Assembly (NCBI GenBank): GCA_002838205.1
Contig: CP017950.1
Coordinates: 310,001 to 374,000, forward strand
Direction: 5' to 3'
Source: Tenericutes bacterium MZ-XQ
GTDB taxonomy: Bacteria; Bacillota_I; Bacilli_A; Acholeplasmatales; Acholeplasmataceae
Length of the DNA stretch: 64,000 nucleotides
Shown: piece after piece, positions 6,924-29,736 of the stretch
How the letters are laid out: each line of letters begins with the position of its first letter
Numbering within the stretch: position 1 is the first letter of the stretch
Notes under the pieces: model-generated
Told to the model about the DNA's origin: nothing
Databases searched by the model: none
Seen by the model: the letters and a program-made list of their open reading frames with translations, nothing else
Translations under genes and position numbers: made by a program

Positions 6924-7028
6924 AATATGAACTTTTAACATCATTTATAGTAAAGTTAGTATAGAGGTTGTAGTAAAGTTGGTCTAGAGGTTATCAAAAA
7001 CAGTGATAAAGTCCATAAAGACAAGACA
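6924..7028 (+). repeat. Dispersed repeat R1, copy A (105 bp)
   Basis: Nearly identical to copies B (9320-9424) and C (12554-12658), with a handful of substitutions, and related to D and E. It begins AATATGAACTTTTA and contains two 23-bp tandem units (core AGTAAAGTTAGTATAGAGGTT). After a spacer, a third half-related unit (GATAAAGTCCATAAAGA) runs into the shared end ACAAGACA. Sequence after the end is unique and opens directly into a 5'-truncated reading frame. Confidence 0.9.
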
Positions 7029-7032
7029 CATA

Positions 7033-9319: not shown

Positions 9320-9424
9320 AATATGAACTTTTAGCATTATTTATAGTAAACTTAGTATAGAGGTTGTAGTAAAGTTAGTCTAGAGGTTATCAAAAACAGT
9401 GATAAAGTCCATAATGACAAGACA
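9320..9424 (+). repeat. Dispersed repeat R1, copy B (105 bp)
   Basis: Same 105-bp length and unit structure as copy A, with only a few substitutions. It is preceded by R2 and by a TTTATGACTT-TCAAA stretch shared with copy D. Its end (GACAAGACA) lies at the left edge of the IS91-type element. CAAG is one of the tetranucleotides next to which IS91-family elements insert. Confidence 0.9.
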
Positions 9425-9435
9425 TAGAATTTTAG

Positions 9436-9467: not shown

Positions 9468-9512
9468 ATTAACTAGGAAATTCTAATTGATCATTTAAAT
9501 AAAAACAAACAG

Positions 9513-9534: not shown

Positions 9535-9554
9535 CTGTAAAACGAGTCAACAAA

Positions 9555-9875
9555 TTAATCAATAAGTTTATGATAAATATCTAAAGGCACAAACTGCAAC
9601 TTACCACAATGACTACAAACATCAACGGGAAAAGCAGCACCTTCAGTCTCCATAAAGTGAGCATAACCAGAAAAATTGACAGTAAGTTCAAATCCACAGT
9701 GCAGACATTTCATATCAACCATGATATCAAAATTAGGCATCGATATAAATGCATTAAATGAAGCGGCAGGGCCAGCAATGAATCCCTGCTTAACAGCTGA
9801 TTTATATTCAGCATACAAATTCTTTTTTTGAACAAAAGACATATGCACAGATTTAGTTTTAAATAGTTTAGGCAT
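9555..9875 (-). CDS. Zinc-ribbon accessory protein of the IS91-type element
   Basis: A 106-residue protein from the ATG at 9875, which overlaps the last codons of the transposase (ATGCCTAA), so it is translationally coupled to it. Two CxxC knuckles (CLHCG near residue 62, CSHCG near 90) suggest a zinc ribbon. The role is unknown; its coupling to tnpA suggests an accessory function in transposition. The longer frame to 9923 lies wholly inside tnpA and is not used. Confidence 0.65.
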   Translation of the reverse strand: MPKLFKTKSVHMSFVQKKNLYAEYKSAVKQGFIAGPAASFNAFISMPNFDIMVDMKCLHCGFELTVNFSGYAHFMETEGAAFPVDVCSHCGKLQFVPLDIYHKLID

Positions 9876-11193: not shown

Positions 11194-11228
11194 AAATCTA
11201 TTATACAATGTGACTTTAAAAAGAAAAA

Positions 11229-11262
11229 GGCGATTTTTATCGCCCCTAGTGAATTTATTCAC
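11229..11262 (+). other. Two adjacent perfect hairpins at the tnpA-proximal end of the IS91-type element
   Basis: GGCGAT-TTTT-ATCGCC (11229-11244) and GTGAAT-TT-ATTCAC (11249-11262), five bases apart, between divergent genes. They are candidates for the element's termination end (terIS) or for transcription insulation. Confidence 0.6.
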
Positions 11263-11275
11263 TTTTGTTCTTTGG

Positions 11276-12553: not shown

Positions 12554-12658
12554 AATATGAACTTATAGCATTATTTATAGTAAAGTTAGTATAGAGGTTG
12601 TAGTAAAGTTAGTCTAGAGGTTATCAAAAACAGTGATAAAGTCCATAATGACAAGACA
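12554..12658 (+). repeat. Dispersed repeat R1, copy C (105 bp)
   Basis: Differs from copy B at only two positions by eye. It ends in GACAAGACA, beyond which the sequence is immediately the interior of a DUF2971-like coding frame, so the repeat replaces that gene's 5' end. Confidence 0.9.
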
Positions 12659-13089
12659 ATCAGAAACCAGATGTCACCAACTTTATTATAAATGAACTAG
12701 ATTATTGGATTTCATTAGTTAAAATCGCAGAAAGTGAAGGATTAAACTATAAAAGATTATATAATCCTGTACTATACACAGATAATACTTTTGGTAGCGA
12801 TGATAATCTTTTTTCAAAATTGCTGATTTCTATAGGTACTGCAAAAAATTCAGAATGGAGTTATGAGAAAGAGTGGAGAATGATACTTGCCCAACACTCA
12901 GATTCGAATGATTATTTTAAGATGATTAAACTAAAACCAAAAGCTGTATATTTAGGAGAAAAAATCTCAATTGAAGATGAGAGAAGGCTAATAGCGGTGT
13001 TAAAAAGTAAGAGAGTTCCTGTGTATAAAATGTTTTCAAACCCGCAAGGGAACTTAAGACTAGAATACATTGAACTAGATGTCAAGTAG
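12652..13089 (+). pseudogene. 5'-truncated DUF2971-family protein
   Basis: A frame of about 145 codons is open from a TGA inside the repeat end to TAG at 13089, with no usable start. Residues around NSEWSYEKEWRMIL match the conserved C-terminal part of DUF2971 proteins, which usually have about 250-300 residues and often sit in defence or abortive-infection regions. The N-terminal half is missing exactly at repeat R1-C. A short product from a TTG at 12820 is possible but unlikely to work. Confidence 0.65.
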
Positions 13090-14687: not shown

Positions 14688-14838
14688 TTATCCTAATAAT
14701 TCATTTCAAATCTGAAATATTAATTTGATAGCTTTGTTAAAACAACTTCTGGTTAACAGCTTTGTCACATTCGAAGTACTATTATTTATTCATAATTCGT
14801 TCACATTATTATTGTATATTGATTATGAGGTATTCAAC

Positions 14839-15765
14839 ATGAAAGTAAAAAAAATACGTAAAAGGTTTTTTCTAATTGTACTTATTTTATCCGTTTCAAT
14901 ATTCTTGCAAGGACTTAATCAAAATATAAAAGTCAATCAGTTAATAAGAGATTTTAAAGAACGAGGTATAGAGGGAGAGACAGTAACCATCTATTTTGAT
15001 AATGGGATGGAAGAAATAAGAATGTATCACCCAGTCGAAAGAATCAATGAATATGAGAAAGCGGATACACGTAGCCTTTTTTATACAACCAAAGATGAAC
15101 CATTTATTGGGAAAAAAGGGGATATATTTGTGACTCAGGAATCACCTTTTCCAAACATATTCGGTTTTCATCAATTGATGAGTTTTTTTGTTGGAGGACA
15201 CGCTGCACTGAATAATGGTAACAATCAATTCATTGAAGCTGTAGGCTTCCCAAAAGATGATGAAAGTATCTTTGATATAATCAAAGACCCTTCAGATGGT
15301 ACACATGATTATTCAGTTGGTGTAAGACAATCTTCTACTAATTATTGGATGTTGCCATATTTTAGAGGAGAAAACGACTTTTCATATCCTTATTATGGTT
15401 CTTATTACAGAGAAAAATTCGTAGTATTGAGAGTAAAAAATATAGATGAAGAAAAACTGGATCAAACTATGTCATATGCCAATGAACATTTAGAAAATCG
15501 TTCATTATATAATTTCCTTTTCATTATGGACACAAAAAACAAATTCTACTGTACTGATTTTATAAGTCGTTCATACAGATATGGGTTAAGTAAGAATAGT
15601 TCAGATAAAAACTATCCAAAAACCCTAAATGATAATGGTTTTGTAACAACTGTTAATGATCTTATCTTATCAAAGGATACATATATTACTGCTTATGTAG
15701 AAAACACAGATGGAATTAGACACATCTACTATTTAGAAGATGAAGGATTGACATCTAATGAATAG
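14839..15765 (+). CDS. Membrane-anchored permuted-papain (YiiX/LRAT-like) hydrolase
   Basis: A 308-residue protein from the ATG at 14839 (GAGGT seven bases upstream); the longer frame from 14725 lacks such a site. Residues 8-25 are a signal-anchor. The order of motifs is that of circularly permuted NlpC/P60 enzymes: GKKGDIFVTQ, then GGHAAL with the likely catalytic His (near 120), then FYCTDFISRSYRYG with the likely catalytic Cys (near 238). Such enzymes cut amides in peptides or lipids; the substrate here is unknown. Its last codons contain the -35 box of the copper promoter. Confidence 0.7.
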   Translation: MKVKKIRKRFFLIVLILSVSIFLQGLNQNIKVNQLIRDFKERGIEGETVTIYFDNGMEEIRMYHPVERINEYEKADTRSLFYTTKDEPFIGKKGDIFVTQESPFPNIFGFHQLMSFFVGGHAALNNGNNQFIEAVGFPKDDESIFDIIKDPSDGTHDYSVGVRQSSTNYWMLPYFRGENDFSYPYYGSYYREKFVVLRVKNIDEEKLDQTMSYANEHLENRSLYNFLFIMDTKNKFYCTDFISRSYRYGLSKNSSDKNYPKTLNDNGFVTTVNDLILSKDTYITAYVENTDGIRHIYYLEDEGLTSNE

Positions 15766-15776
15766 TTTGATATAGT
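15748..15776 (+). promoter_or_regulatory. Promoter of the copper operon
   Basis: Consensus TTGACA (inside the last codons of the preceding gene), 17-base spacer, TATAGT. The CsoR-type operator follows 9 bases downstream and would overlap the transcription start. Confidence 0.85.
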
Positions 15777-15785
15777 ATAGATGAC

Positions 15786-15804
15786 ACCCCACCACGGGAG
15801 GGGT
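15786..15804 (+). promoter_or_regulatory. CsoR-type copper operator (left copy)
   Basis: The 19-mer ACCCCACCACGGGAGGGGT is a G/C-rich near-palindrome in an otherwise AT-rich region, identical to 22549-22567 in front of csoR. CsoR operators are G-tract pseudo-palindromes of this kind. Its position just after the -10 box fits repression that is relieved by Cu(I). Confidence 0.85.
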
Positions 15805-15823
15805 AAAAAAGGAGGAATTACTT

Positions 15824-16051
15824 ATGGCAACGCTAATTTATAGAATCGGAGATATCCATTGCATCGGATGCATCAATCGCATTACTTCAGCTTTAGAATC
15901 AGCGGGAGCAATCAATGTTGATATTAATTTTTCAACACATATTGCAAAAGTATTGACTGAAGAGGAAAAACCCAATTCAAATATGTATCTTGAGGCAATT
16001 GTTCAAACAGGATATCAAGTCGAATACTTAACGACCATCGAAGAGGAATAA
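15824..16051 (+). CDS. HMA-domain copper chaperone-like protein
   Basis: A 75-residue single heavy-metal-associated domain with the metal loop GDIHCIGC. The CxxC pair is intact but the usual Met-Thr before it is Ile-His. Such proteins (CopZ type) carry Cu(I) to the export ATPase. AAAAGGAGGAATTAC precedes the ATG. It is the first gene of the operator-controlled operon, five bases before copA. The atypical loop may alter affinity or partner choice. Confidence 0.85.
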   Translation: MATLIYRIGDIHCIGCINRITSALESAGAINVDINFSTHIAKVLTEEEKPNSNMYLEAIVQTGYQVEYLTTIEEE

Positions 16052-16055
16052 TAAA

Positions 16056-18530
16056 ATGTCGAGTAATATTAAATATCGAGTGAATGGTATGACTTGTGCT
16101 TCGTGTGTCAACCATGTTGAAAAAGCATTAAGAAAAGTTGAAGGGATAATTGATGTTTCTGTGAATTTAGCAACTGAAACTGCAACAATTCAATTTGATG
16201 ATAACAGTTTTAGTTCAAACCTTGCAATGAATGCTGTTAAGGGGATAGGATATGAACTCATTACTATCGAAAACAATCATAAGACTGTGACTGCCAAAGT
16301 TGATGGAATGAGTTGTGCAACATGCGCAAACAGTATTGATAATACACTGTTGAAGATGGATGGGATTATTGATGCTCATGTTAATCTCGCTACGGAGAAA
16401 GTTACCATTCAATATGACGATCGCGTCATTCGTTTTAGTGATATCAAACACCGCATCCAAAGCATTGGATATAAGATTAGCCTCGAAGTAACAAATGATG
16501 AATCGGTTGATCCTGATACACTCAAGATGATTTCCGCTAAAAAAAGAGTTCAATTGAGTTCAACAATAACTATTTTGATGATGTCACTCATGCTGATTCA
16601 CATGTTTGTTGTTGAAATTCCATTATACACTTGGATCATTGCCATACTGGGTTTCCCAGTCATATTTATCATTGGCCGTCACGTGCACAGAGGAAGTTAT
16701 TACTCTCTTAAATCATTGAAACCGAATATGGATGTCCTTGTGTCACTCGGATCTATTCCACCCTATCTCATCGGTCTCACAGGATTGTTTTTCCCAATCA
16801 CAACATTTATCGAAATGGCAACAACAATTATGACATTTCACTTGATTGGAAAATTCCTGGAAAGTAAGGCTAAAGGAAAAGCATCCCAAGCCATCAAAAA
16901 ATTAATGGAACTAGGAGCGAAAACTGCACGCATTTTAGTCGATGGCAATGAGATCGAAGTTTTAACGAATGAACTCAGTGTTAAAGATATCATGATTATT
17001 AGACCAGGCGAAAAAATACCAACAGACGGAATGATTATTGAAGGTAAAAGTTTAATTGATGAATCGATTGCAACAGGTGAATCGATGCCGGTCAAAAAGC
17101 ATGTGGGTGACAATGTAATCGGAGCAACCATTAATAAAGATGGTTTGCTCAAAGTAGAAGTTACTAAAATCGGTAAAGAAACATTCTTATCTCAAGTTAT
17201 AGAGATGGTTGAATCTTGTCAGGGATCCAAAGTGCCTATACAAGAATTTGCAGACAGAATTACATCCTATTTTGTGCCCGCTATCATGGTTCTAACATTG
17301 CTCACATTCAGTTCTTTTTTAATTTTCACAAATTTCCATTTGGGTATTTTAGAATATATGGAACCTATTTTACCATGGATTAACACAGATCAAACTCCAT
17401 TAACTTTAGCATTTATTACAGCAACAGCAGTATTAGTTATCGCATGTCCATGTGCGCTTGGATTGGGAACACCTACAGCATTAATGGTGGGTAGTGGTGT
17501 TGGTGCAGAAAAAGGCATTCTAATACGAAATGGCGAAGCGGTACAAACACTTAAAGATATCAAAGCGATTGCCTTTGATAAAACTGGCACACTCACATAT
17601 GGTAAACCCGTAGTGACTGACAAGCATGCTGTGAGTATCGATGAACACCAGTTGATGCTTATCGCTGGATCTCTTGAAACAGGATCAGAGCATCCATTAG
17701 CAATGGCAATTATCGAAGATGTAAAAAATAATAATCAAAAGCTTTTAAATCCTACAGATTTTGAAGCCATATCTGGCATGGGTATTAAAGGTATTCTAGA
17801 TAATAAGACGTATTATTTTGGTAACAGAAAACTAATCAAATCGATTGGTCATTCTTATGATGGATTAGAATCAATGATGCAACAACTTGAAAATGAAGCT
17901 AAAACGGTGATGATTCTAGCAGATGATATAGAGATACTTGGTATCATTGCTGTTGCAGATGCATTAAAACCTGATGCAGTACATGTTATTCGGGCAATCG
18001 AAAACCTTGGTATAACGACAGCTATGATTACTGGAGACAATTCAAGAACTGCTCAAGCAATCGCAAAAAAAGCTGGTATAACAAGAATTATCTCTGATGT
18101 TTTACCTGAAGGAAAAGTAAACGAAATTTCGAAACTCCAGAGCGAATTTGGATTAGTCGCAATGGTCGGTGACGGTATTAATGATGCACCAGCGCTTAAG
18201 CAAGCTAATGTAGGTATTGCCATTGGAACAGGTACAGATATTGCAAAAGAAGCAGCTGATGTTACTTTAGTATCTGGTGAGTTGCATACATTACTCACTT
18301 CGATTCAGTTATCGAAAGCTATCTTTAGAAAAATTAAGCAAAACTACTTCTGGGCATGGTTCTATAATGCGATTGCAATCCCATTTGCGATGTTAGGTTT
18401 ATTACATCCTATGATTGGTGCTGCTGCAATGTCAATTAGTTCTCTTAATGTAATCTATAATTCATTGAGATTAAAAAAACAGTCATTCTTAAAGGTTGAT
18501 AAGGAGTTAGTCCATGCACACTCATCATAA
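16056..18530 (+). CDS. copA: Copper-exporting P1B-type ATPase CopA
   Basis: An 824-residue protein with two N-terminal HMA domains (GMTCASC near 9 and GMSCATC near 83), the transmembrane Cu site CPC (IACPCALGLGTPTALMVG near 461), the phosphorylation loop DKTGT near 508, SEHPLA, and MVGDGINDAP. It exports Cu(I) across the membrane using ATP. It lies between the HMA protein and lgt and overlaps lgt by 17 bases. Codons here (CGC, GTC, CTC) look somewhat less AT-biased than in core genes, which fits acquisition by transfer. Confidence 0.97.
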   Translation: MSSNIKYRVNGMTCASCVNHVEKALRKVEGIIDVSVNLATETATIQFDDNSFSSNLAMNAVKGIGYELITIENNHKTVTAKVDGMSCATCANSIDNTLLKMDGIIDAHVNLATEKVTIQYDDRVIRFSDIKHRIQSIGYKISLEVTNDESVDPDTLKMISAKKRVQLSSTITILMMSLMLIHMFVVEIPLYTWIIAILGFPVIFIIGRHVHRGSYYSLKSLKPNMDVLVSLGSIPPYLIGLTGLFFPITTFIEMATTIMTFHLIGKFLESKAKGKASQAIKKLMELGAKTARILVDGNEIEVLTNELSVKDIMIIRPGEKIPTDGMIIEGKSLIDESIATGESMPVKKHVGDNVIGATINKDGLLKVEVTKIGKETFLSQVIEMVESCQGSKVPIQEFADRITSYFVPAIMVLTLLTFSSFLIFTNFHLGILEYMEPILPWINTDQTPLTLAFITATAVLVIACPCALGLGTPTALMVGSGVGAEKGILIRNGEAVQTLKDIKAIAFDKTGTLTYGKPVVTDKHAVSIDEHQLMLIAGSLETGSEHPLAMAIIEDVKNNNQKLLNPTDFEAISGMGIKGILDNKTYYFGNRKLIKSIGHSYDGLESMMQQLENEAKTVMILADDIEILGIIAVADALKPDAVHVIRAIENLGITTAMITGDNSRTAQAIAKKAGITRIISDVLPEGKVNEISKLQSEFGLVAMVGDGINDAPALKQANVGIAIGTGTDIAKEAADVTLVSGELHTLLTSIQLSKAIFRKIKQNYFWAWFYNAIAIPFAMLGLLHPMIGAAAMSISSLNVIYNSLRLKKQSFLKVDKELVHAHSS

Positions 18531-19443
18531 TACAAAACATCAACATCATCAGTATATGATCATGATTCACGTCTTTTTGATGGTCTTGTTTCTTGCGATA
18601 GGAAGCCAGAGTAGCGCCCCCTATTCAAGAGTAGCAATTGATTTTGGTAGCATTCAAATCTATTGGTATGCAATTTTCATTTTGACAGGAGTATTTATAG
18701 CGGCATATTATAGTCAGAATGAACTCAATCGTTTAAATTATCCTAAGGATATTATCTATGACGGTCTCTTAATTGGGTTACCTTTAGCACTTTTAGGAGC
18801 TAGACTTTATTATGTGCTCTTTGATCCGATTCCACATTATAAGACTTTTCTGGACATAATGAATATCTCAAAAGGTGGATTAGCAATTCATGGAGCAATC
18901 ATTACCACTCTAGTTTTTGTCCCTATTTTTTGTAAGATCAAAAAAATTAAATTATTGCCACTTATAGATACGTTGATGATAGGATTTCTCATTGGACAAA
19001 TCGTTGGTAGATTTGGAAATTTCATGAACCATGAAGCCTACGGACCAGCAATTCAATCAGCCTGGGTTATTGACATATTGCCTAAATTCATTGTTGAACA
19101 AATGACTCTAGGTAGTGTTGTTCATCATCCTACCTTTTTATATGAAGGTTTATGGAACCTATCTATGCTTGTCACACTGATCATTTTAAAGAAGAAACGT
19201 TTGCTCAAAGTAGGTGAAAATCTTGGACTTTATTTGATATGGTACGGTTTAGGTAGAGGAATAATCATTGAGCCGATGAGAGTCAATGGTGCATATGGAG
19301 ATGCACTGATGATTATGGATATTCCGGTAAACATAATAATGTCACTCGTTTTTGTTGCTCTAGGTGTAGTGTATTTGTTTTTTAGCAGACTAAAGATGAA
19401 AAATCTTCCCTATCAAGTAGATTTAGTTAATGTAACATCATAA
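18514..19443 (+). CDS. lgt: Prolipoprotein diacylglyceryl transferase paralogue with His-rich N-terminus
   Basis: A 309-residue polytopic protein of Lgt length. It has the Lgt signature GRFGNFMNHEAYG (near 169) plus LGARLYYV, HGAI and YEGLWN segments. Lgt moves a diacylglyceryl group onto the lipobox Cys of prolipoproteins. Residues 1-16 (MHTHHNTKHQHHQYMI) are a His-rich extension that could bind metal. It is coupled to copA (17-base overlap, AAGGAG within copA), so it is copper-induced rather than the housekeeping copy (inference). Transmissible copper loci of other Firmicutes also carry lipoprotein-modifying genes. Confidence 0.9.
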   Translation: MHTHHNTKHQHHQYMIMIHVFLMVLFLAIGSQSSAPYSRVAIDFGSIQIYWYAIFILTGVFIAAYYSQNELNRLNYPKDIIYDGLLIGLPLALLGARLYYVLFDPIPHYKTFLDIMNISKGGLAIHGAIITTLVFVPIFCKIKKIKLLPLIDTLMIGFLIGQIVGRFGNFMNHEAYGPAIQSAWVIDILPKFIVEQMTLGSVVHHPTFLYEGLWNLSMLVTLIILKKKRLLKVGENLGLYLIWYGLGRGIIIEPMRVNGAYGDALMIMDIPVNIIMSLVFVALGVVYLFFSRLKMKNLPYQVDLVNVTS

Positions 19444-19455
19444 CAATCAATAACG

Positions 19456-19493
19456 AAATGCCAGAGATCAAAATTATTCTCTGGCATTTTTAT
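19456..19493 (+). terminator. Terminator of the copA-lgt operon
   Basis: A 12-bp stem AAATGCCAGAGA / TCTCTGGCATTT followed by TTTA, 12 bases past the lgt stop. Confidence 0.85.
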
Positions 19494-19499
19494 ATAGAG

Positions 19500-19526
19500 A
19501 AAAGCGAGTTTAGTCAACTCGCTTTT
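19500..19526 (-). terminator. Terminator of the copB-side operon
   Basis: An 11-bp perfect stem AAAAGCGAGTT / AACTCGCTTTT with a 5-base loop, just past the copB stop. Its terminal T run works on either strand, insulating the convergent operons. Confidence 0.8.
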
Positions 19527-19537
19527 GTGTAATAAAT

Positions 19538-21664
19538 TTAGATTTTTAGCAATCGAGCGTTAATAGCTACAATGACTGTACTTAGTGACATTAATACTGC
19601 TCCAACTGCAGGACTCAATAGAATACCAATAGAACTTAATACACCAGCAGCTAAAGGAATAGCTATAATATTATATCCTGTTGCCCATATGAGGTTTTGA
19701 ATCATTTTCTTATAGGTTGATTTAGAAAGTTTTATGATATTTACGACATCCATTGGATTACTCTTAACAAGGATGACATCTGCAGTTTCAATCGCGACAT
19801 CTGTACCTGCACCAATTGCAATACCAAGGTGTGCTTTAGCTAGTGCTGGTGCATCATTGATGCCATCACCTGTCATGGCTACAAGACGCCCTTCTTTTGT
19901 AAGTGATTCAATCTTATCTGATTTTTGATCAGGTAAAACCTCTGCAAATACATGTTGAATACCAATCTTTTTAGCAACTTCATCAGCAACTTTTTGATTA
20001 TCTCCTGTCAGCATATATGAATCAATGCCCATATCTTTCAGTGTTTCAATAGCCTCTTTTGAGGTTTCTCTAATCATATCGTTTAAAGCAATATAACCCA
20101 TCAATTGTTTATCTTTGAGTACAAAAACGACCGTGTTACCTTGGGAAGCTAATGCTTCATAAGACGTTTGATCAAAGGAGATATCGAGTGTTTTGATATA
20201 TCCAGGACTCACAATTTCAATGGTTGATTGATCAATGACACCGACAAGCCCCTTTCCTGGGATTGCTTTAATATCTTTAGCTTTAAGTAGTTGAACTTTT
20301 TTATCTTTAGCGGCACTTACGATTGCTTTTGCAATGGGATGCTCTGATTCATTTTCGATGGCATATGCTAAAGAGAGAAGTTCGTTTTCACTTAGACTAA
20401 GGCCTTCAATTTTTGAAATACCAAATTCTCCTTTGGTGAGTGTGCCGGTTTTATCGAATACAATGGTATTGATTTTGCGTGCATTTTCAAAGTTAGCTCT
20501 ATTGCGAATGAGTAACCCGTGTTTTGCACCTATGCTTGATGAAACAGCAGTAACAAGTGGTGTTGCTAATCCAAGTGCATGAGGGCATGAAATAATGACA
20601 ACAGTTACAGCTCTTTCCATAGCAAATCCAATATCTTTACCGAGTAACATCCATATAACAAATGTTGATATACCGCCTAATAATGCAACATAGAATAAGT
20701 ATTTCGCAGCAACATCGGCTAGTCTTTGAGTTTTTGAACGTGTTTTTTGAGCGTCTCTGACAAGTTTAATGACTTGTGAGAGGAATGTCTCATCACCAAT
20801 ACGTGTCACCTCATACTTTAGTGAACCTTCAGCGTTAATTGAACCACCTATTAATTCGTCGCCAGGTGATTTATCTACAGGAACTGACTCACCAGTTAAC
20901 ATGGATTCATTGACTGATGACTTTCCCTCGATAACTTTACCATCAATCGGAACTTTTTCTCCAGGTCTGACTAATAAAATCATACCTGCTTTAACTTGAG
21001 TGACTGATATATCATTAATGTGACCTTCTTGGTCAATGACGTGAGCTTCTTCAGGCATCAGTTTTAAGAGTTCTTCTAAAGCTCTTGATGCACCTAATAC
21101 AGACTTCATTTCAATCCAGTGACCGAGTAGCATGATTGAGATGAGTGAAGATAACTCCCAGAAAAAGTCTTGACCGGTTTGGAATATGACGGTATATGCA
21201 CTATAGATATATGCGACGACAATAGCAAGGCCAATGAGAGACATCATAGCTGGTGCTTTTTGCTTCATCTCTTCAAAAGTACCTTTAAAAAATGGTAATC
21301 CGCCATATATAAATAACAAAGTGCTGAGTGTCAAAAGAATGTATAAGTCTCCAGAAAATCTTAGATTCAAATCGAAAAATTCCTGAATCATAGGTGAGAG
21401 AGTTAAAATTGGAACTAATAATACTAGTGAAATCAAAAACCTTCTTTTAAAATCTTTAACCATCATAGTATGGTGATCGTGATGCCCTTCATGACTTTGA
21501 TGCTCTGCACCTTTGTAACTATCACCGTGACTATGGTTGTGAATTTCTTCATGATGGTGTATGTGGTCATCATGCGTTTCGTGATTCATGGCTTTTTTAT
21601 TGTGGTCGATATGCTCATCCTTATCTACTTTGTGATGATGATGATTGTGTTTATGTTTGTCCAT
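19538..21664 (-). CDS. copB: CopB-type copper-transporting P1B ATPase
   Basis: A 708-residue protein with an exceptionally His-rich cytoplasmic N-terminus (residues about 2-68, dozens of His with Asp and Glu). The transmembrane motif is CPH (ISCPHALGLATP near 358) instead of the CPC of CopA. It has DKTGT near 404, SEHPIA and MTGDGINDAP. CPH pumps of the CopB class export Cu(I)/Cu(II) and commonly carry His-rich ends. It is the last gene of the minus-strand csoR-cueP-copB operon and converges on copA-lgt. Confidence 0.95.
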   Translation of the reverse strand: MDKHKHNHHHHKVDKDEHIDHNKKAMNHETHDDHIHHHEEIHNHSHGDSYKGAEHQSHEGHHDHHTMMVKDFKRRFLISLVLLVPILTLSPMIQEFFDLNLRFSGDLYILLTLSTLLFIYGGLPFFKGTFEEMKQKAPAMMSLIGLAIVVAYIYSAYTVIFQTGQDFFWELSSLISIMLLGHWIEMKSVLGASRALEELLKLMPEEAHVIDQEGHINDISVTQVKAGMILLVRPGEKVPIDGKVIEGKSSVNESMLTGESVPVDKSPGDELIGGSINAEGSLKYEVTRIGDETFLSQVIKLVRDAQKTRSKTQRLADVAAKYLFYVALLGGISTFVIWMLLGKDIGFAMERAVTVVIISCPHALGLATPLVTAVSSSIGAKHGLLIRNRANFENARKINTIVFDKTGTLTKGEFGISKIEGLSLSENELLSLAYAIENESEHPIAKAIVSAAKDKKVQLLKAKDIKAIPGKGLVGVIDQSTIEIVSPGYIKTLDISFDQTSYEALASQGNTVVFVLKDKQLMGYIALNDMIRETSKEAIETLKDMGIDSYMLTGDNQKVADEVAKKIGIQHVFAEVLPDQKSDKIESLTKEGRLVAMTGDGINDAPALAKAHLGIAIGAGTDVAIETADVILVKSNPMDVVNIIKLSKSTYKKMIQNLIWATGYNIIAIPLAAGVLSSIGILLSPAVGAVLMSLSTVIVAINARLLKI

Positions 21665-21676
21665 AATTTGCCTCCT

Positions 21677-22237
21677 TTAGGCTAGTTTAAGTGTTGTAAG
21701 ACATGTATTTGATGTAGTAAAAGTTGAAACTTCGTCAGTTGCCGAAAAATTCTCATATGAAACATTAATCTGATATCGTTTATTTATTGGTAACCAAATA
21801 CCGGCAAATCCATTCGAACTGCTTATAATAGTTTTTTCTATGATGACAGTATTTGTTTGAGAATCAACAATCTTAACTTCAAAAGATTTATTTTTTAACT
21901 CTCCACGACAGGTGACTAAATTATGATTAGCACAAGGATGAGTCTGATTGACATAGGGTGCAAATGAGAGATAAAACTGACCTTTAGGTAGTTCTAACTC
22001 CATCTGATGTGTCGCATCACCTAAAAGCAATTTTGTTCCAGTAATCGCTGCACTAAAATTTGTAGGTTCATTTAAATCATTCTCTAAATAGGTCACTATA
22101 TCTTTTACTGTCATACCATCTAGATCATATTTTGCCAAGAAATCATTTCGATTTGGTGAATTTGCTGCTACAAAAGCAATAAGTCCAATAAATGCTATAA
22201 ATATGGAAAAACTGATTAGTAATTTCTTTTTCATCAT
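21677..22237 (-). CDS. cueP: CueP-family extracytoplasmic copper-binding protein
   Basis: A 186-residue protein with an N-terminal membrane/signal helix (about 4-22). The CueP-type core has FAPYVNQTHPCANHNLVTC followed by RGEL, and a C-terminal TCLTTLKL cysteine. CueP binds copper outside the cytoplasmic membrane. The ATG at 22237 has GAGGTG six bases upstream; a GTG at 22246 overlapping the csoR stop is the alternative. It is transcribed with csoR and copB. Confidence 0.88.
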   Translation of the reverse strand: MMKKKLLISFSIFIAFIGLIAFVAANSPNRNDFLAKYDLDGMTVKDIVTYLENDLNEPTNFSAAITGTKLLLGDATHQMELELPKGQFYLSFAPYVNQTHPCANHNLVTCRGELKNKSFEVKIVDSQTNTVIIEKTIISSSNGFAGIWLPINKRYQINVSYENFSATDEVSTFTTSNTCLTTLKLA

Positions 22238-22242
22238 AGACC

Positions 22243-22533
22243 TCACCTCAAGTATTTCACTAAAATTTCAGTGATTTCATCAATTTTTTCTTTACCTTTT
22301 TGTTCGAAAATAGCTTCTGTAACGCATGTACTAATATGATCGTTTAATATTAATGCATTAGCATTTTGAAGCATAGCAATAACTGATAGTATCTGTTTTG
22401 AGATATCTACACAGTATCTTCCTTCTTCATACATTTTGAGTATGCCTTCCATTTGACCTCGTCCAGTTTTTAGTAACTGCTTGATTTTTTCCTCATTCAT
22501 GTGTTTTGTGTTATGTTGATGCGATTGACTCAT
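22243..22533 (-). CDS. csoR: Copper-sensing repressor CsoR
   Basis: A 96-residue all-helical protein of the CsoR/FrmR family with the full Cu(I) ligand set Cys41 (YCVDI), His66 and Cys70 (DHISTC). It binds G-rich operators and lets go when Cu(I) binds. A His-rich N-terminal tail (HQHNTKH) is extra. It is the first gene of the minus-strand operon, has AAGGAGG before its ATG, and is preceded by one of two identical operators, so it is autoregulated and also controls the copA operon. Confidence 0.96.
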   Translation of the reverse strand: MSQSHQHNTKHMNEEKIKQLLKTGRGQMEGILKMYEEGRYCVDISKQILSVIAMLQNANALILNDHISTCVTEAIFEQKGKEKIDEITEILVKYLR

Positions 22534-22548
22534 AGTTTTCCTCCTTAA

Positions 22549-22567
22549 ACCCCACCACGGGAGGGGT
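22549..22567 (-). promoter_or_regulatory. CsoR-type copper operator (right copy)
   Basis: Identical 19-mer to 15786-15804 in the same plus-strand orientation. It lies between the csoR -10 box and the csoR ribosome-binding site, overlapping the expected transcription start. Confidence 0.85.
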
Positions 22568-22577
22568 ATACAAGTAC

Positions 22578-22605
22578 ATTATATCATGGTAATATAAAAA
22601 TGCAA
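22578..22605 (-). promoter_or_regulatory. csoR-cueP-copB promoter
   Basis: On the minus strand: TTGCAT, 16-base spacer, TATAAT. The -10 box is 10 bases upstream of the operator. Confidence 0.75.
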
Positions 22606-22642
22606 TAATATTTTTACATTCATTTTATATTCATAATTGTTT

Positions 22643-22650
22643 GGTATTAT
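22643..22650 (+). promoter_or_regulatory. Extended -10 promoter of the SHOCT/Met-rich operon
   Basis: TGGTATTAT, 18 bases before the ATG at 22669, divergent from csoR. No clear -35 box is seen, and the operator is about 80 bases away, so direct CsoR control is uncertain. Confidence 0.5.
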
Positions 22651-22668
22651 ATAGTCGAGGTGAATAAG

Positions 22669-22998
22669 ATGAATAAAAAACAAGGTATCTTTTTAGGAAT
22701 TTTTATTGCATTAATGGTTATAGTTGCTATCGCATTCTGGTATTTTTCACCACAGTGGGCAGACAATAGTGATTATCCATATTATGGTCATATTGTGGGA
22801 GGTTGGGGTATGCCATTTGGTATGTTAGCTATGGGTATATTTTGGATTGGTGTGATTTACTTCGCATTAAATGGTTTTAGTTATCGCAGTGAATGCAGAC
22901 ACGATCAAGCAATTGAGGTATTAAAATCACGACTTGCAAAAGGTGAGATTACAATTGATGAATATGAAAAACTAATAGAAAAATTGAGGGATAAATAA
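22669..22998 (+). CDS. Two-helix membrane protein with C-terminal SHOCT domain
   Basis: A 109-residue protein from the ATG at 22669 (GAGGTG upstream). Membrane helices span about 7-26 and 43-66. The C-terminal stretch LKSRLAKGEITIDEYEKLIE is a SHOCT domain, a short oligomerisation module. It is the first gene of a plus-strand operon in the copper island, one base before the Met-rich secreted protein. Function unknown; small SHOCT membrane proteins often accompany copper genes in Firmicutes. Confidence 0.8.
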   Translation: MNKKQGIFLGIFIALMVIVAIAFWYFSPQWADNSDYPYYGHIVGGWGMPFGMLAMGIFWIGVIYFALNGFSYRSECRHDQAIEVLKSRLAKGEITIDEYEKLIEKLRDK

Positions 22999-22999
22999 T

Positions 23000-23611
23000 A
23001 TGAGAAAAGGTTTGATTGCTTTCGGACTAACCATCACAGTTGCATTTTTAGGCATGTTATCAATGGGGGCTGTAAATGCATATTCACGCGATAATGGTAA
23101 TGATATTCTTGAGTTAAATTTAAGCCAACATGGCATGATGGGATCAAATTACAGTCTTTATAGTTTTGAAAGAATATATCTTCATCTATCTACTGATAAT
23201 CAAGAAAAATTAGATTCTGGTTTTGCTAATGAGTTAATAACCACAGATATTCAACAAAAAACTGTTGTAGAGGTTGTTGAAATCATTGAGCAGATTAAAT
23301 CGGATATCATAGATGATGTTCAGATTGAGTATTCTACCCAACGATTTGGCATGATGGGCGGTAACATGATGGGGTATGGTGGAAATGATCCATATGCAAA
23401 TTGTGGTTACCAGAATAATGCTAGTACTTATGAATGGTTGTATATTCATTCGAGTGATGCCCAAAGAGATAGTTTGGACTTATCATTTGCGGAAGCTATT
23501 ATGAATTTGGATTTGTCAAATCTATCAGTTCAAGAACTAGTTGAAAGCATAAATGAAATTAAGACAAATTTAGTTAATCAACTATCAAATCTGGTTCAGC
23601 CGAATGAATAA
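23000..23611 (+). CDS. Secreted Met-rich protein with internal duplication
   Basis: A 203-residue protein with a signal peptide (1-27, ending VNA). The mature part holds two related helical repeats of about 55 residues: near 55-105 (FERIYLHLSTDNQEKLDSGF...) and near 143-197 (YEWLYIHSSDAQRDSLDLSF...). Each ends in a helix of the pattern VVE-I--I-SDI. Between them is a Met/Gly-rich linker (FGMMGGNMMGYGG) and a first HGMMG cluster near 44. Methionine clusters of this kind bind Cu(I) outside the cytoplasm in other proteins. Family not recognised; a copper-binding role is inferred. Confidence 0.75.
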   Translation: MRKGLIAFGLTITVAFLGMLSMGAVNAYSRDNGNDILELNLSQHGMMGSNYSLYSFERIYLHLSTDNQEKLDSGFANELITTDIQQKTVVEVVEIIEQIKSDIIDDVQIEYSTQRFGMMGGNMMGYGGNDPYANCGYQNNASTYEWLYIHSSDAQRDSLDLSFAEAIMNLDLSNLSVQELVESINEIKTNLVNQLSNLVQPNE

Positions 23612-23619
23612 AGAAGTTG

Positions 23620-23651
23620 TGGGTGGGTAAACATACTCACCCATATTTTTG
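23620..23651 (+). terminator. Hairpin terminator
   Basis: TGGGTG / CACCCA stem with a 12-base loop followed by ATATTTTTG, just after the Met-rich gene. Confidence 0.65.
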
Positions 23652-23691
23652 TTGTTGTTGTTGTATAATATTCACATAGGAAGTGATTTGA

Positions 23692-24372
23692 ATGAAAACA
23701 TTAATTGTTGAAGATTATCCGAAGATCAATCAGTTATTAGCGATGTATGCGCGTAATGATGGACATGAAGTCAAACAAGTATATAACGGTGAGGAAGCAC
23801 TTGCAGCAGTTCATCATGAAAAGTTTGATATTATTCTCTTAGATTTAATGCTTCCTGGAATACAAGGAGAAGAACTAATCAAACAAATACGCAAAGTGTC
23901 AGATGTTTATATTGTTGTATTATCAGCAAAAATTGATATCAAAGATCGTGTCGATGTCATCACACTTGGAGCTGATGATTACATGATTAAACCTTTTTCA
24001 ATTGAGGAGGTCATGGCAAAACTCAAAAATGTTGAAAAAAGACTTGTTGTTAATCATCCAACAATCTATACATTTAATCATTCACATCTAAAAGTTCTAC
24101 CCTTAAGTAGAGAGGTTTTTGTTCACAATCAATTGATCAATTTAACACAATACGAATATGATATTTTATTGCATCTGCTTTCGCATCCTAACATTGTTTT
24201 TTCTAGAGATATGATTATTGAGCAGTGTTTTTCAAATAGTGATGCTTATGACCGCGTTATTGATGTTTTCATAAAAAACATCAGAAAAAAAATTAATTTT
24301 TCTTCTGAAAAGTCATACATTAAAACGCATTATGGTATTGGATATCAGTTTGTGGGGGTAAAAGATGAATAG
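23692..24372 (+). CDS. OmpR/PhoB-family response regulator
   Basis: A 226-residue protein. The receiver domain has Asp7-Asp8-type acidic pocket residues, phospho-acceptor Asp51 (ILLDLMLPG) and the switch Lys in MIKPFS. A C-terminal winged helix (about 130-224) has LTQYEYDILLHLL and the RVIDVFIKNIRKKI recognition helix. It overlaps the histidine kinase by eight bases. Its place in the copper island suggests a CopR/CusR-like sensor pair. TATAAT at 23664-23669 is its probable -10 box. Confidence 0.92.
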   Translation: MKTLIVEDYPKINQLLAMYARNDGHEVKQVYNGEEALAAVHHEKFDIILLDLMLPGIQGEELIKQIRKVSDVYIVVLSAKIDIKDRVDVITLGADDYMIKPFSIEEVMAKLKNVEKRLVVNHPTIYTFNHSHLKVLPLSREVFVHNQLINLTQYEYDILLHLLSHPNIVFSRDMIIEQCFSNSDAYDRVIDVFIKNIRKKINFSSEKSYIKTHYGIGYQFVGVKDE

Positions 24373-25597
24373 TATAAAGAACCTCCTTATATCACAAATC
24401 TTTAAAATAGTGCTCATCATTTTTCTATCAACCATTTTTTTATTGAATATTGCTTTTTATTTTTTTACAAATAACCAATTCCAAAAAGAAATTGCAAGAC
24501 AATATGATGAACTATACAATATGACTGCTCATCTATCCACTGAAGAAAACTTCGAAACTTTAATCGTATATTTGGAGCATTATACACATAATAATGATGT
24601 AACAATTCATTTCAAAAATGTTACAGAACAAACCGTTTTCACCAATGATTTTGATGATATATTAATAAAGTTTGAAGCTATATATTATGATAATGCTCTG
24701 CTTGGTTATTTAGCAGTCGACTTTGAATCTTCTAAATTAAGTAAAGATATTCTTTACGGCTTTGTTGGGTTAAATTTAGTCTCTATTACATTGTTCGCTT
24801 TTGGGATGTATATTTTATATAAATTTCTTAGAAATGAAAATACTAAGATAAGGTTGGACTTAAAACATATTGAGACAGAAAGTTCGACTTTCGCATATAA
24901 AGAAATGAAACAATTGCACTTTCAACTCATGACTAACCAAGTTCAAAGAGAAAAACAAAGATCTGTTTATGAGTCTCATATCAAGAGTATTGCACACGAT
25001 ATCAAAACCCCTCTTTCAGTAATACGAATCTATGCAGATTCATTAGTCAATGAAAAACTTAATCCAACTAAAGATGTTTTTTTGGATATTCAAGTAGAAA
25101 CTATTAAAATAATGAACTTAATTCCTAAGTTTATTGAGCTCGATTATGTTGAAATACCATATCTTCAAAATATCTCTTTATTTATTAACAAATACGCACA
25201 TAAGTACAAAGAAATATTCGAAAGTAAACAGATTTCTATAACACTCGAATTAGAGACTTTACTTGTAAATATTTCAGATAAAGATTTAGAAAGATTAATT
25301 GAACACCTTTTATTCAATGCTTTTTATTATTCTAATCCACAATCAAATATTACAATCTCAGTTCAAAATAAAACAAGAAGACTGGTAGTTAGTGATGAAG
25401 GGATTGGTATGACAAGTGAAACAATTATAAATATCTTAAAAGGTCCTTATCGTTCAGAAGAGGCAATGAAATTTAACGAAAAAGGTAGTGGATTGGGTCT
25501 TCAATTTGTAAAAGATATTGTTCGAAAATTGGAAGCAAATTTGCAAATTGACAGTGTTGTAGGACATGGAAGCAAAATAAGTATTCAATTTTCTTAA
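24365..25597 (+). CDS. Sensor histidine kinase
   Basis: A 410-residue protein. Membrane helices at about 10-35 and 133-155 flank an extracytoplasmic sensor loop of about 95 residues. The dimerisation/phosphoacceptor helix has SIAHDIKTPLSVIR. The ATPase domain has an N-box near HLLFNAFYYSN, VSDEGIGM and GSGLGLQFVK. It is translationally coupled to the preceding response regulator. The sensed ligand is probably extracytoplasmic copper, inferred from context only; no clear metal motif is seen in the loop. Confidence 0.93.
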   Translation: MNSIKNLLISQIFKIVLIIFLSTIFLLNIAFYFFTNNQFQKEIARQYDELYNMTAHLSTEENFETLIVYLEHYTHNNDVTIHFKNVTEQTVFTNDFDDILIKFEAIYYDNALLGYLAVDFESSKLSKDILYGFVGLNLVSITLFAFGMYILYKFLRNENTKIRLDLKHIETESSTFAYKEMKQLHFQLMTNQVQREKQRSVYESHIKSIAHDIKTPLSVIRIYADSLVNEKLNPTKDVFLDIQVETIKIMNLIPKFIELDYVEIPYLQNISLFINKYAHKYKEIFESKQISITLELETLLVNISDKDLERLIEHLLFNAFYYSNPQSNITISVQNKTRRLVVSDEGIGMTSETIINILKGPYRSEEAMKFNEKGSGLGLQFVKDIVRKLEANLQIDSVVGHGSKISIQFS

Positions 25598-25825: not shown

Positions 25826-26040
25826 AAATATGTTTCTTTGGTATTATCGTTGCTTGTTAGTGTAAACATAAAATGGTCATTTTGATGTTATTTGAGTACA
25901 CACAACACCCCATTTTCGAGCAATATGGTGCACTCAACGCAGATTGAATGAGACAACATATTATTAAAAGTGACGGAAAATGGACAAACCTTATTGGACA
26001 AACAATTATATTGTTTTTATAGTATAATTGTAATAAACAG
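25826..26040 (+). repeat. Dispersed repeat R2, copy c
   Basis: Matches R2 copy a (9117-9300) over most of its length, including the inverted repeat GAGTACAC (25894) / GTGCACTC (25928). An extra A/T-rich stretch with TATAGTATAAT near its end could be a promoter. It continues through a shared TTTATGACTT-TCAAA stretch into R1-D, as copy a does into R1-B. Confidence 0.8.
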
Positions 26041-26062
26041 TTCTTGTTTTATGACTTATCAA

Positions 26063-26167
26063 AATATGAACTTTTAGCACAAAAACAGATAAAGTCCATA
26101 AAGAGGTTGCAGTAAAGTTCATAAAGAGGTTATACAAAATACAGATAAAGTCCAAAAAGACAAGACA
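26063..26167 (+). repeat. Dispersed repeat R1, copy D (105 bp, diverged)
   Basis: The same length and ends as copies A-C (AATATGAACTTTTAGCA ... ACAAGACA), but its three internal units are more alike: GATAAAGTCCATAAAGAGGTT, AGTAAAGTTCATAAAGAGGTT and GATAAAGTCCAAAAAGA. This shows that the repeat is a tandem array of one about 23-bp unit. It lies upstream of the toxin-antitoxin pair. Confidence 0.85.
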
Positions 26168-26248
26168 GTTAAAAAAAGATATTGTATTTGTCAATAGTCT
26201 TTTCTATTTAATCATCACTAATTCAAAAGAAAATAATTAAACACCCCG

Positions 26249-26293
26249 ATGAGGTATTAAACAGTTGACAACTACTTCAATGAGGTATAAAAT
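26249..26293 (+). promoter_or_regulatory. Promoter and candidate operator of the HTH-MNT/HEPN operon
   Basis: TTGACA (26265-26270), 17-base spacer, TAAAAT (26288-26293). Two direct repeats ATGAGGTATTAAA (26249) and ATGAGGTATAAAA (26280), 31 bases or three helical turns apart, flank the -35 and overlap the -10. This spacing suits binding by a dimeric HTH protein, probably the antitoxin itself. Confidence 0.65.
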
Positions 26294-26312
26294 ATAAGTA
26301 GAGGTGATTTAT

Positions 26313-26807
26313 ATGAATCAATCACTAAAGGCAGTGAGAGAGAATCTTGGACTTACACAATTAGAAGTATCTAAATTGATTGATATTCCAATAAATACAA
26401 TTAGAAACTGGGAACAAGAAATTAGAACGCCAAGTGAATGGGCACTCAACTTATTAATAGATAGAATATTAAGAGAATCAATTGAACAGCACACTGTTGT
26501 TGATGAAGAAACTGGTATTTTGTCTTTTTTAACTATTAAAAAAAATGTTGCTAAAATTGCAGCGAAGTATGATATTGAGCGTATTTATTTATTTGGATCA
26601 TATGCCAAAGGACAAGCCACAGAAAATAGTGATATTGATCTATATATGGAATCTAATTTATTCGGATTGGAGTATTATGAATTTGTTGAAGAACTAAGAG
26701 AAAAACTGAAGAAGAAAGTTGAAGTGCTAAGTAATAAAACAATTATAGAACACTCAAAAATAGATCAAGAGATTAAAAAGACGGGGATACTGATTTATGA
26801 AAGATGA
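26313..26807 (+). CDS. XRE-type HTH fused to MNT nucleotidyltransferase antitoxin (MntA-like)
   Basis: A 164-residue protein from the ATG at 26313 (AGAGGTGA upstream). Residues about 4-45 are a helix-turn-helix (LTQLEVSKLIDIPINTIRNW). Residues 74-164 are a minimal nucleotidyltransferase with GSYAKG (95-100) and the catalytic DID pair (Asp107, Asp109). MntA antitoxins neutralise HEPN toxins by AMPylating a tyrosine. It overlaps the HEPN gene by 11 bases. The HTH fusion suggests it also represses its own promoter. Confidence 0.9.
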   Translation: MNQSLKAVRENLGLTQLEVSKLIDIPINTIRNWEQEIRTPSEWALNLLIDRILRESIEQHTVVDEETGILSFLTIKKNVAKIAAKYDIERIYLFGSYAKGQATENSDIDLYMESNLFGLEYYEFVEELREKLKKKVEVLSNKTIIEHSKIDQEIKKTGILIYER

Positions 26808-27117
26808 GATATATATTGAGCGTATCAATAAGTATGCAAAGAAAATAGGCAAATATATGGAAGAGGTCGATACATTTACAGACTTTGAGAACAACGACGA
26901 AAAAGTCGATGCAGTTATATTAAACCTAGAACAAATTGGTGAAACAGCTAAGAAACTTTCAGATAAGACAAAACAAAATTTTAATTCTATTCATTGGCCA
27001 AGCATTATTGGCTTAAGAAATATGATATCACATGAATACGAAGGTATTAGACTAAATATCATTTATGACATTGCTACAGTAAATATACCAGAGTTGTTAT
27101 CTAAACTAGATAAATAA
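26797..27117 (+). CDS. HEPN-domain RNase toxin (HepT-like)
   Basis: A 106-residue four-helix HEPN/DUF86 protein with the complete R-x4-H-x-Y motif (Arg74-NMIS-His79-Glu-Tyr81). In HepT toxins Arg and His cut RNA, and the Tyr is the residue AMPylated by MntA. It is translated from an ATG inside the end of the antitoxin gene. Repeat R1-E starts one base after its stop, so the pair is enclosed by R1 copies D and E. Confidence 0.92.
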   Translation: MKDEIYIERINKYAKKIGKYMEEVDTFTDFENNDEKVDAVILNLEQIGETAKKLSDKTKQNFNSIHWPSIIGLRNMISHEYEGIRLNIIYDIATVNIPELLSKLDK

Positions 27118-27118
27118 G

Positions 27119-27187
27119 ATGAACTTTTAGCATCATAAGTGATAAATTCCGTTAAGAGGTAGTAGTAAAGTCCATAAAGACAAAACA
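27119..27187 (+). repeat. Dispersed repeat R1, copy E (69 bp, two units)
   Basis: Starts ATGAACTTTTAGCATCAT like the others but has only two units (GATAAATTCCGTTAAGAGGT and AGTAAAGTCCATAAAGA) before the end ACAAAACA, in which CAAG has become CAAA. It touches the HEPN stop codon. A short gene-free stretch with a terminator follows. Confidence 0.8.
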
Positions 27188-28569: not shown

Positions 28570-29736
28570 TTATTTGAAATGTGAATGATCAAATGTCAGT
28601 TGGTTGACACCTAAATAGTATATCGTGCGTATTAGTTTTCTAACAGAGTGAACCATGGCGACTTTATGATGTTTACCTTCAGCACGTTTCTTAAGGTAAT
28701 AATCATAGAGTTTAGGATTCAATCTTAAGCCCGCAAAAGTGATTTGCCAAAAAGTCATTCTAAGTAATCCGGATCCACGTTTGACGATATGTCCTCTGGT
28801 TTCTATTGTTCCTGATTGATTGACAGATGTATCCAGTCCAGCAAATGAAACAATTTGAGCTGGATTTGTAAAGTTTTTAAAATCACCAAGTTCGGCGATG
28901 ATAATTGCTGCAGAGATGATGTTGAGACCTGGAATGGTTGTCAGTGTTTGATTGATATTTTCCATGAGATGGATGATTTCATGTTCAACAGATTCAATGA
29001 TTTCAGTTAACGTCTCATAGTGTTTTATGGAGTGTTTAAGAAGTAACAGATCAGACTGAGTTTCATATCCAACTGATGATTTAGCTAAAGATTTAAGTTT
29101 TTGAACTCTAACATAAGATAATCTGCCTTTAGAGTGACTTCTAATGGATTCATAGTCATTGTTAGAAAGTTTCGAAATTCTTGCTCTGGATTTGAACTTT
29201 TTAAGGATGAACATCGCACTACTAGAGAGTCTTTCGTTAAAAAAAGGTTTAAACTCAGGAAAGATACGATCAAGGATGTTTGTCAGTTCAATGAGTGTTT
29301 TAGAACGATTGACCATTTGAACATGACGATACCTTACCAGTTGTTTTAATTCGTTGATGTGGTAAAATTTAGTATGTAAGGTCTTGTAGTCAACAGAACC
29401 TAGCATACTTGAAATCGTTTTGGCGTCAACTTTATCTGTCTTTGTCTTACGTAACGATAATGCCTTGGAAAACATGTGCGTTAAGTAAGGGTTAAATTCC
29501 AGATAAGTATAACCAGATGCCGTGATAAACTGTTTAAGGTTTGATCCATAGTGTCCTGTTGACTCAAGACCTATTCTTATTTCTTTTGACTGATCTAAAG
29601 ATTTTAAGACCTCAAGAAATAAATCGAAACCTAAACGATTGTTATCAAAGCTGAATGCTTTGATTTGAATACCTGCTTCAGTAGCTATGAAGCAGTCGTG
29701 TTTGTACTTAGAGATATCAATTCCGATTAAGTACAT
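28570..29736 (-). CDS. IS110-family transposase
   Basis: A 388-residue protein. The N-terminal RuvC-like DEDD domain has IGIDISK (Asp7), GLESTGHYG and KTDKVDAKTI carrying the acidic residues. The C-terminal Transposase_20 domain has TIPGLNIISAAIIIAELGD, SFAGLDTSVNQSG and the catalytic-Ser-bearing RGSGLLR. These enzymes recombine DNA under guidance of an element-encoded bridge RNA. TTGGAGGTG precedes the ATG. The ORF appears intact, so the element may be active. Confidence 0.93.
   Translation of the reverse strand: MYLIGIDISKYKHDCFIATEAGIQIKAFSFDNNRLGFDLFLEVLKSLDQSKEIRIGLESTGHYGSNLKQFITASGYTYLEFNPYLTHMFSKALSLRKTKTDKVDAKTISSMLGSVDYKTLHTKFYHINELKQLVRYRHVQMVNRSKTLIELTNILDRIFPEFKPFFNERLSSSAMFILKKFKSRARISKLSNNDYESIRSHSKGRLSYVRVQKLKSLAKSSVGYETQSDLLLLKHSIKHYETLTEIIESVEHEIIHLMENINQTLTTIPGLNIISAAIIIAELGDFKNFTNPAQIVSFAGLDTSVNQSGTIETRGHIVKRGSGLLRMTFWQITFAGLRLNPKLYDYYLKKRAEGKHHKVAMVHSVRKLIRTIYYLGVNQLTFDHSHFK

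Follow-up and report, generated by a model that had tools for sequence, protein, structure and literature searches.

A type VII toxin-antitoxin pair as a probable R1-ended cassette in the arrays of Acholeplasmataceae

The chromosome of Tenericutes bacterium MZ-XQ (one contig of 2.16 Mb) carries a toxin-antitoxin (TA) operon between two copies of a repeated sequence, R1, and the first-pass annotation likened this arrangement to the TA cassettes that stabilise integron arrays. The question is whether the pair is indeed a cassette, where such a cassette begins and ends, and what kind of system would move it. These points were addressed in a window of 64,000 nucleotides, the whole stretch analysed (positions 310001-374000 of contig CP017950.1), and in its relatives, including MO-XQ (G023) of the same genus and Acholeplasma equifetale (G001) of the same family. 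Feature coordinates are collected in Table 1.

The proposed HTH-MNT/HEPN operon between R1-D and R1-E checks out in its open reading frames, domains and coordinates. The two ORFs overlap, and the antitoxin comes first. A domain search of the 167-aa antitoxin ORF places HTH_3 at residues 8-44 and Polbeta/NTP_transf_2 at 81-167, which bears out the annotated fusion of an XRE-type HTH to an MNT domain within a single ORF; the ATG at 26313, behind AGGTGA, is the likelier start and gives 164 aa. The 106-aa ORF matches the HepT-like family PF01934 at 6e-21, and a PF01934 HEPN protein here adjoins a PF01909 MNT protein. Both motifs of catalytic HepT/MntA pairs, as given in the available extracts of PMC7641770 and PMC11586414, are complete: GSX10DXD at residues 95-109 of MntA, and RX4HXY at residues 74-81 of HepT, which places the target tyrosine at Tyr81, the residue already named in the annotation. 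The same adjacency with complete motifs is described there for the type VII pairs of Shewanella oneidensis (SO_3166/SO_3165) and Legionella pneumophila (PMC7641770, PMC11586414), from which the window pair differs in that its antitoxin has an N-terminal XRE HTH and comes first, and in that the pair ends in R1. The available account of Xress-MNTss of Streptococcus suis (PMC8406773) likewise combines an XRE regulator, which there binds its own promoter, with an MNT protein; those are separate genes, however, with MNT reported as the toxin, whereas the window has a single fused protein alongside HepT.

The MNT part also matches the PDB MNT chains 8xeh and 8xeo (3.5e-5 and 6.7e-5), and phmmer gave no PDB match for HepT. 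Since the MNT part matches the PADLOC candidate defence family PDC-S09, a role in defence is possible. The antitoxin protein was matched in 18 of 88 family genomes, two of the 18 weakly. Judged by sequence, the HTH-MNT fusion is common within the family and the pair is a normal type VII module, a further member of an already known kind. From family knowledge and the conserved motifs, HepT is predicted to act as an RNase toxin and to be neutralised when MntA places AMP on Tyr81; the HTH of MntA would repress the operon at paired operators.

The repeat operator that had been proposed upstream of mntA proved real. Each ATGAGGTAT repeat (26249 and 26280) makes up half of an imperfect palindrome, the palindromes lying around TTGACA (26265) and the -10 region, and this block is kept in most of 16 aligned upstream regions from relatives, whether R1 is present or absent. 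The -10 box at about 26288-26293 follows a spacer of 17 and reads TAAAAT in the window and TATAAT in relatives; we infer a promoter here from the alignment. Because the operator block is kept with or without R1, it is part of the TA module and not of R1.

Table 1. Coordinates of the TA cassette, its parts, the R1 copies and related sites (window positions unless a locus is named).
Feature	Position	Strand	Basis
TA cassette, genes plus 3' R1	26170..27187	+	Comparison with relatives
Upstream operator half CCCCGATGAGGTAT	26244..26257	+	Kept in most of 16 aligned upstream regions
-35 box TTGACA (putative promoter)	26265..26270	+	Alignment of upstream regions
Second operator half CTTCAATGAGGTAT, overlapping the -10 region	26275..26288	+	Alignment of upstream regions
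mntA-type antitoxin, 164 aa, XRE HTH + MNT nucleotidyltransferase fusion	26313..26807	+	ORF, domain search, motif alignment
hepT toxin, 106 aa, HEPN domain	26797..27117	+	ORF, domain search, motif alignment
R1-A, behind the upstream HepT C-terminal remnant that follows a Nudix gene	6925..7030	+	Sequence comparison
R1-B, with leader	9321..9426	+	Sequence comparison
R1-C; the B-C cassette recurs between two R1 copies in OKU6 (L086)	12555..12661	+	Sequence comparison
R1-D, diverged 106-bp copy, preceded by a conserved leader of ~290 bp	26064..26169	+	Sequence comparison
R1-E, shortened and diverged, serving as 3' site of the TA cassette	27116..27187	+	Sequence comparison
S2 sites	L087:4198-4260, L087:1528, L078:7141, L115:1250	-	Sequence comparison
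S3 candidates	L018:6526-6667 (-), L091:257 (-), L073:13093		Sequence comparison

R1 is 83 or 106 bp long. Its left part holds an inverted AAAGTTCAT-like motif, its middle one or two 23-bp units (TAGTAAAGTTAGTCTAGAGGTTG), and its right unit ends sharply in GACAAGACA, beyond which similarity stops. The ATGAAC of the five window copies lies at 6927, 9323, 12557, 26066 and 27119. R1-A, R1-B and R1-C are 94-98% alike; R1-D is 75-79% identical to these three, and R1-E is diverged too. R1-D and R1-E are nevertheless copies of one repeat, with 82% identity over 65 nt, and an R1-D query recovers the four other window copies in the 2.16-Mb genome at E values of 3e-18 to 1e-11, so their resemblance is not due to chance. 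As annotated, the ATGAAC of R1-E begins one base past the hepT stop (TAA, 27115-27117), and this copy ends in GACAAAACA at 27187. R1-D is at once the 3' site of an upstream metal-resistance cassette and the left border of the TA cassette. The metal-resistance block itself (14725-25597) encodes P-type ATPases, lgt and a two-component system.

With R1-C as query, R1 was detected at E<=1e-5 in 11 of the 88 family genomes, a count that rises to 22 at E<=0.01. Across the class, 14 of 395 genomes have it, these belonging to families f1, f10, f14 and f22; copies are often ~97% identical across families. The largest array is that of MO-XQ, where nine copies in 48 kb (641-689 kb) share one orientation (9/9 on the plus strand), and a further copy lies on a 93-kb plasmid. 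Scanning the GTDB species collection by pattern returned 23 stretches, all from Mycoplasmatota, Acholeplasmataceae, Izimaplasma, or bins labelled Bacilli, Bacillales or Bacillota. One viral contig has two R1 copies, and none was found in phage records. By nhmmer, orientation is uniform within each array, including the window (5/5 on the plus strand).

Comparison with relatives defines the unit to which the pair belongs. HepT at least about 75% identical to that of the window was found in nine genomes, and in seven of these R1 or part of it directly follows HepT: the window, G183, DAH.13, YM.12, SFB_3D_100_73, G440 (with just the left portion of R1) and M50B101, where R1 lies just 3' of a hepT pseudogene. 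The distance from the hepT stop to R1 or its left half is 0-2 nt in DAH.13, YM.12, SFB_3D_100_73, G183 and G440. In OKU6, R1 comes 770 bp past HepT, beyond a methyltransferase-like gene, and G022 has a close HepT with no R1 behind it. Among HepT loci below 67% identity, R1 follows HepT in 0 of 10, and one (L213) has R1 just upstream. The annotation had suggested a search of further genomes for the R1-flanked pair at different loci, and R1-linked copies of it do occur there; a general lack of R1 flanks in the relatives, which would have spoken against it, is not what the seven of nine genomes show. The DNA to the right of R1 differs among the close HepT loci, with one context common to DAH.13, YM.12 and SFB_3D. 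The pair is preceded by tRNA-Leu in YM.12 and SFB_3D, by a different R1 cassette in both the window and G183, and by unrelated DNA elsewhere among the relatives; homology to the TA cassette begins near 26235, and its 5' edge is not conserved. The recurring 3' R1 and variable 5' side indicate that the stable unit consists of the genes and the R1 on their right. Of the pair described as bracketed by R1, the 3' copy therefore stands as part of the unit, while R1-D, by sequence comparison, belongs to the neighbouring metal-resistance cassette and not to the TA unit; R1 on both sides is a by-product of the pair standing in an array. An ordinary chromosomal TA pair that merely happens to stand between two repeats would fit the observation that most relatives of the fusion protein lack an R1 context, some lying beside tRNA or housekeeping genes, but in seven of nine close relatives the hepT stop is followed at the same position by a whole or partial R1, and such a coincidence is very improbable.

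A C-terminal HepT remnant stands behind a Nudix gene twice in the MZ-XQ genome, at 6856-6919 of the window and at L018:17882-17945, and once in UBA3566. The remnants are attached to R1 at R1-A and in UBA3566, and the L018 remnant stops a few bases short of where R1 would begin. When R1 copies are grouped by left flank, the three largest groups are the leader (15 copies), HepT/MntA (6, remnants included) and RelBE-GNAT (4), RelBE and GNAT being named by eye from translations.

The neighbourhoods of R1 show a pattern of rearrangement. Across 51 distinct copies, the left flank is common to 126 pairs and the right flank to 23, and only one pair has both flanks in common. An 11.4-kb metal-resistance segment common to the window and the MO-XQ array (94.3%) ends at R1-D (26167). 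A segment of ~7 kb is 99.3-99.7% identical among the MO-XQ chromosome, the MO-XQ plasmid and zrk7, and stops at R1 in the comparisons that involve the chromosome. The window cassette B-C is found again in OKU6, enclosed by two R1 copies and with different neighbours on both sides; the window copy carries an inserted IS91-like element. When shared segments were counted at >=250 bp and >=88% identity, 29 of 144 interior ends fell <=6 bp from the R1 right end and 2 at the left end, against a right-end expectation of 0.40 on average and 4 at most in 2000 random placements. By our own reading of the list, 15 of the 29 right-end breaks are due to the conserved leader; with the leader set aside, shared-left and shared-right breaks are about equal, and the right-end asymmetry among breakpoints was thus traced to the leader.

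Two abrupt switches in nearly identical DNA speak to the mechanism. L115 and L213 share 2112 bp at 99.95% and then part at the right end of R1' (...TAGTAATGACAACAC), a site that resembles R1; L087 shares 627 bp at 100% with L103 and L095 before parting at the right end of another site, S2 (...GGTTACGCAACCC). Moreover, DNA to the right of R1 in one genome occurs without R1 elsewhere (L018, G183 and G005 vs MO-XQ). Exchange between R1 copies alone does not yield such junctions, and from these alignments some end-specific joining at R1-type right ends is likely. The alternative is that R1 is a MITE-like non-autonomous mobile repeat lodged near gene ends, with homologous recombination shuffling the intervening DNA and no dedicated recombinase. 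The size of R1 (about 100 bp) and its frequent ~97% identity agree with this, as do the balance of breaks once the leader is excluded, the close HepT genes of OKU6 and G022 with no R1 at the stop, and the independence of R1 sequence from its left flank: sharing a left flank does not make copies more similar internally than others, and rare variants are weakly linked to the left flank (28 of 500 permutations reach the observed value, R1 columns 5-107). Such a repeat nevertheless accounts poorly for exact right-end switches at R1' and S2 within almost identical DNA, and for the same downstream DNA with and without R1 while left sides differ. In addition, no clean empty site was found for 49 joined flank pairs in 1.4 Mb of loci searched, where the crossing matches consisted of DNA matching itself under different locus identifiers and one weak short match. 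We regard the MITE-like origin as rather unlikely.

On balance, we think it probable, though by no means assured, that the TA pair is an R1-ended cassette and that such units are rejoined at the R1 right end by an end-specific recombinase. R1, with its ~23-bp units and sharp right end, would be the cassette's 3' site, and the TA module would comprise the genes and R1. Genes and right-hand R1 would become joined at that end to new downstream DNA, and this joining would build same-orientation arrays and move cassettes among chromosomes, a plasmid and families. An end-specific enzyme of this kind would presumably act on R1 in trans. Several observations count against a single precise enzyme: internal similarity of R1 copies does not follow the left flank, rare variants are weakly linked to that flank, and right junctions sometimes fall inside genes. 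The leader's share of the breakpoints also weakens the cassette reading.

Searches for such an enzyme covered several known classes. No match to the integron integrase model TIGR02249 exceeded the cut-off in any of eight R1-bearing genomes, the control genomes also matching only below cut-off; tyrosine recombinases below it are present in all eight. Single-stranded folds of three R1 copies were weak (z 0.54, -2.04 and 0.31) and gave no attC-like hairpin, and R1 had no Rfam match as structured RNA. Apart from the housekeeping Xer type, no candidate recombinase family was present in all tested genomes. A XerCD/pdif site was rejected, as each of six genomes (6/6) has a single dif that R1 does not resemble by eye. 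The pdif modules of Acinetobacter plasmids are gene modules, often TA modules, between recombination sites; R1 differs from these in being unlike the single dif of R1 genomes and in being directly repeated. IS26-type translocatable units have direct repeats alternating with cargo, whereas R1, at about 100 bp, encodes nothing. Large serine recombinases are numerous, often paired and sometimes near R1 (L080, L081, L090), but were set aside since they are absent from G087, which has three R1 copies, and hold no constant position relative to R1.

R1 might instead mark where a transposon or one-ended element terminates (Tn7-like, IS91-like or IS200/IS605-like), with the cassettes as transposase cargo. 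A sharp right end in CA and several ~23-bp units are as expected of transposon ends, and R1 right junctions sometimes fall within genes, which were identified by eye as a cadA homologue, a serine recombinase and an IS transposase. An IS91 origin was suggested by GAAC and CAAG inside R1 and by the IS91-like transposase beside R1-B, but was rejected, as the three copies of that 1815-bp element end before R1. A Y1 transposase of the IS200/IS605-like type was likewise rejected, being present in just three of the eight R1-bearing genomes. A search for TniQ gave no match in the eight genomes, nor in the control genomes. No second end was recognised, and the single orientation per array (nhmmer) also speaks against this origin, which we consider distinctly improbable. 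The IS91-like element (Y2_Tnp, Zn_Tnp_IS91) occupies 9458-11272 (-) of the window, its three genome copies being 99.8% identical (also in L019 and L020). An IS110-family transposase lies at 28570-29736 (-), 1.4 kb downstream of R1-E, and a very similar IS110-family ORF precedes the MO-XQ array (L072:3915-5081).

Several further elements accompany R1-type sites. S2 is a second site family, in which ~22-bp units resembling AGGGGTGCGTAAAAATAG stand in tandem and terminate in ...GGTTACGCAACC|CA; it precedes the same cassette starts as R1 and shows right-end breaks likewise. S3 is a possible third type, in which AGGGTGCTAAATTGTATTA units are followed by a GGGGATTTAAACCC hairpin, and the CadA segments of L018 and MO-XQ part inside S3. 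The leader of ~290 bp (window 25826-26063 and 9117-9320; 15 R1 copies altogether) has hairpin-like repeats and a TATAAT box, with no Rfam match. This promoter-like leader sits inside arrays, before many R1 copies, and a terminator-like hairpin often follows R1; to judge from these sequences, leader, R1 and terminator could form a small RNA gene. TA cassettes also stand directly 3' of tRNA genes (L095:6952-7037, L103:4444-4529, L082:6928-7012), and a tRNA-type terminator sequence (TATAACAAGCATTGGTTTGATAC) recurs to the right of R1 copies, as if R1 had replaced a tRNA 3' end. No tRNA was found in the window, so the tRNA 3' end as primary target is just a lead.

The closest analogy to the R1 arrays is the Vibrio cholerae superintegron, which in the available extracts of its description (PMC11551772) likewise comprises same-orientation cassette arrays with a repeated 3' site and TA cassettes. 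It differs in that R1 is iteron-like, with neither an integrase over the cut-off nor an attC-like fold, and in that R1 cassettes are often multi-gene and kilobases long. The integron comparison drawn in the first-pass annotation accordingly holds for behaviour, in that there is an array whose genes have a common, uniformly oriented 3' site, and reshuffling as seen in the B-C cassette with its different neighbours; it does not hold for the machinery, as neither integrase nor attC-like site was found. Failing IntI and the attC-like fold, the R1 array is not filed as an integron. TA cassettes of the Vibrio superintegron stabilise the array through post-segregational killing, according to the same extracts (PMC11551772). 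By analogy, it is plausible that the window pair stabilises its array, in that it would discourage loss of its stretch.

More tentatively, R1, R1' and S2 may together mark a means of cassette capture, unrelated to integrons, in Mycoplasmatota and nearby Bacilli, with iteron-type sites 3' of genes, exchange at the right end of these sites by an enzyme acting in trans, and TA modules as stabilisers; we hold this broader proposal to be possible but doubtful. IntegronFinder 2.0 reported no integrons in about 400 Tenericutes genomes, as given in the available part of that report (PMC9024848), and listings of open-access literature showed no description of integron-like cassettes in Acholeplasma, Izimaplasma, Acholeplasmatales or Tenericutes, nor of integrase-less integron-like cassettes in Firmicutes. 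There is a real chance that the R1 array is a new system; the novelty is in the R1 surroundings of the TA pair, the pair itself being ordinary. A reshuffled, same-orientation, TA-carrying array in Tenericutes, with about 97% site identity between families and with a plasmid, would mean either that cassette arrays arose twice or that repeats and homologous recombination have strikingly converged on the same form. R1 arrays thereby make the stabilisation of arrays by TA pairs in general testable outside integrons.
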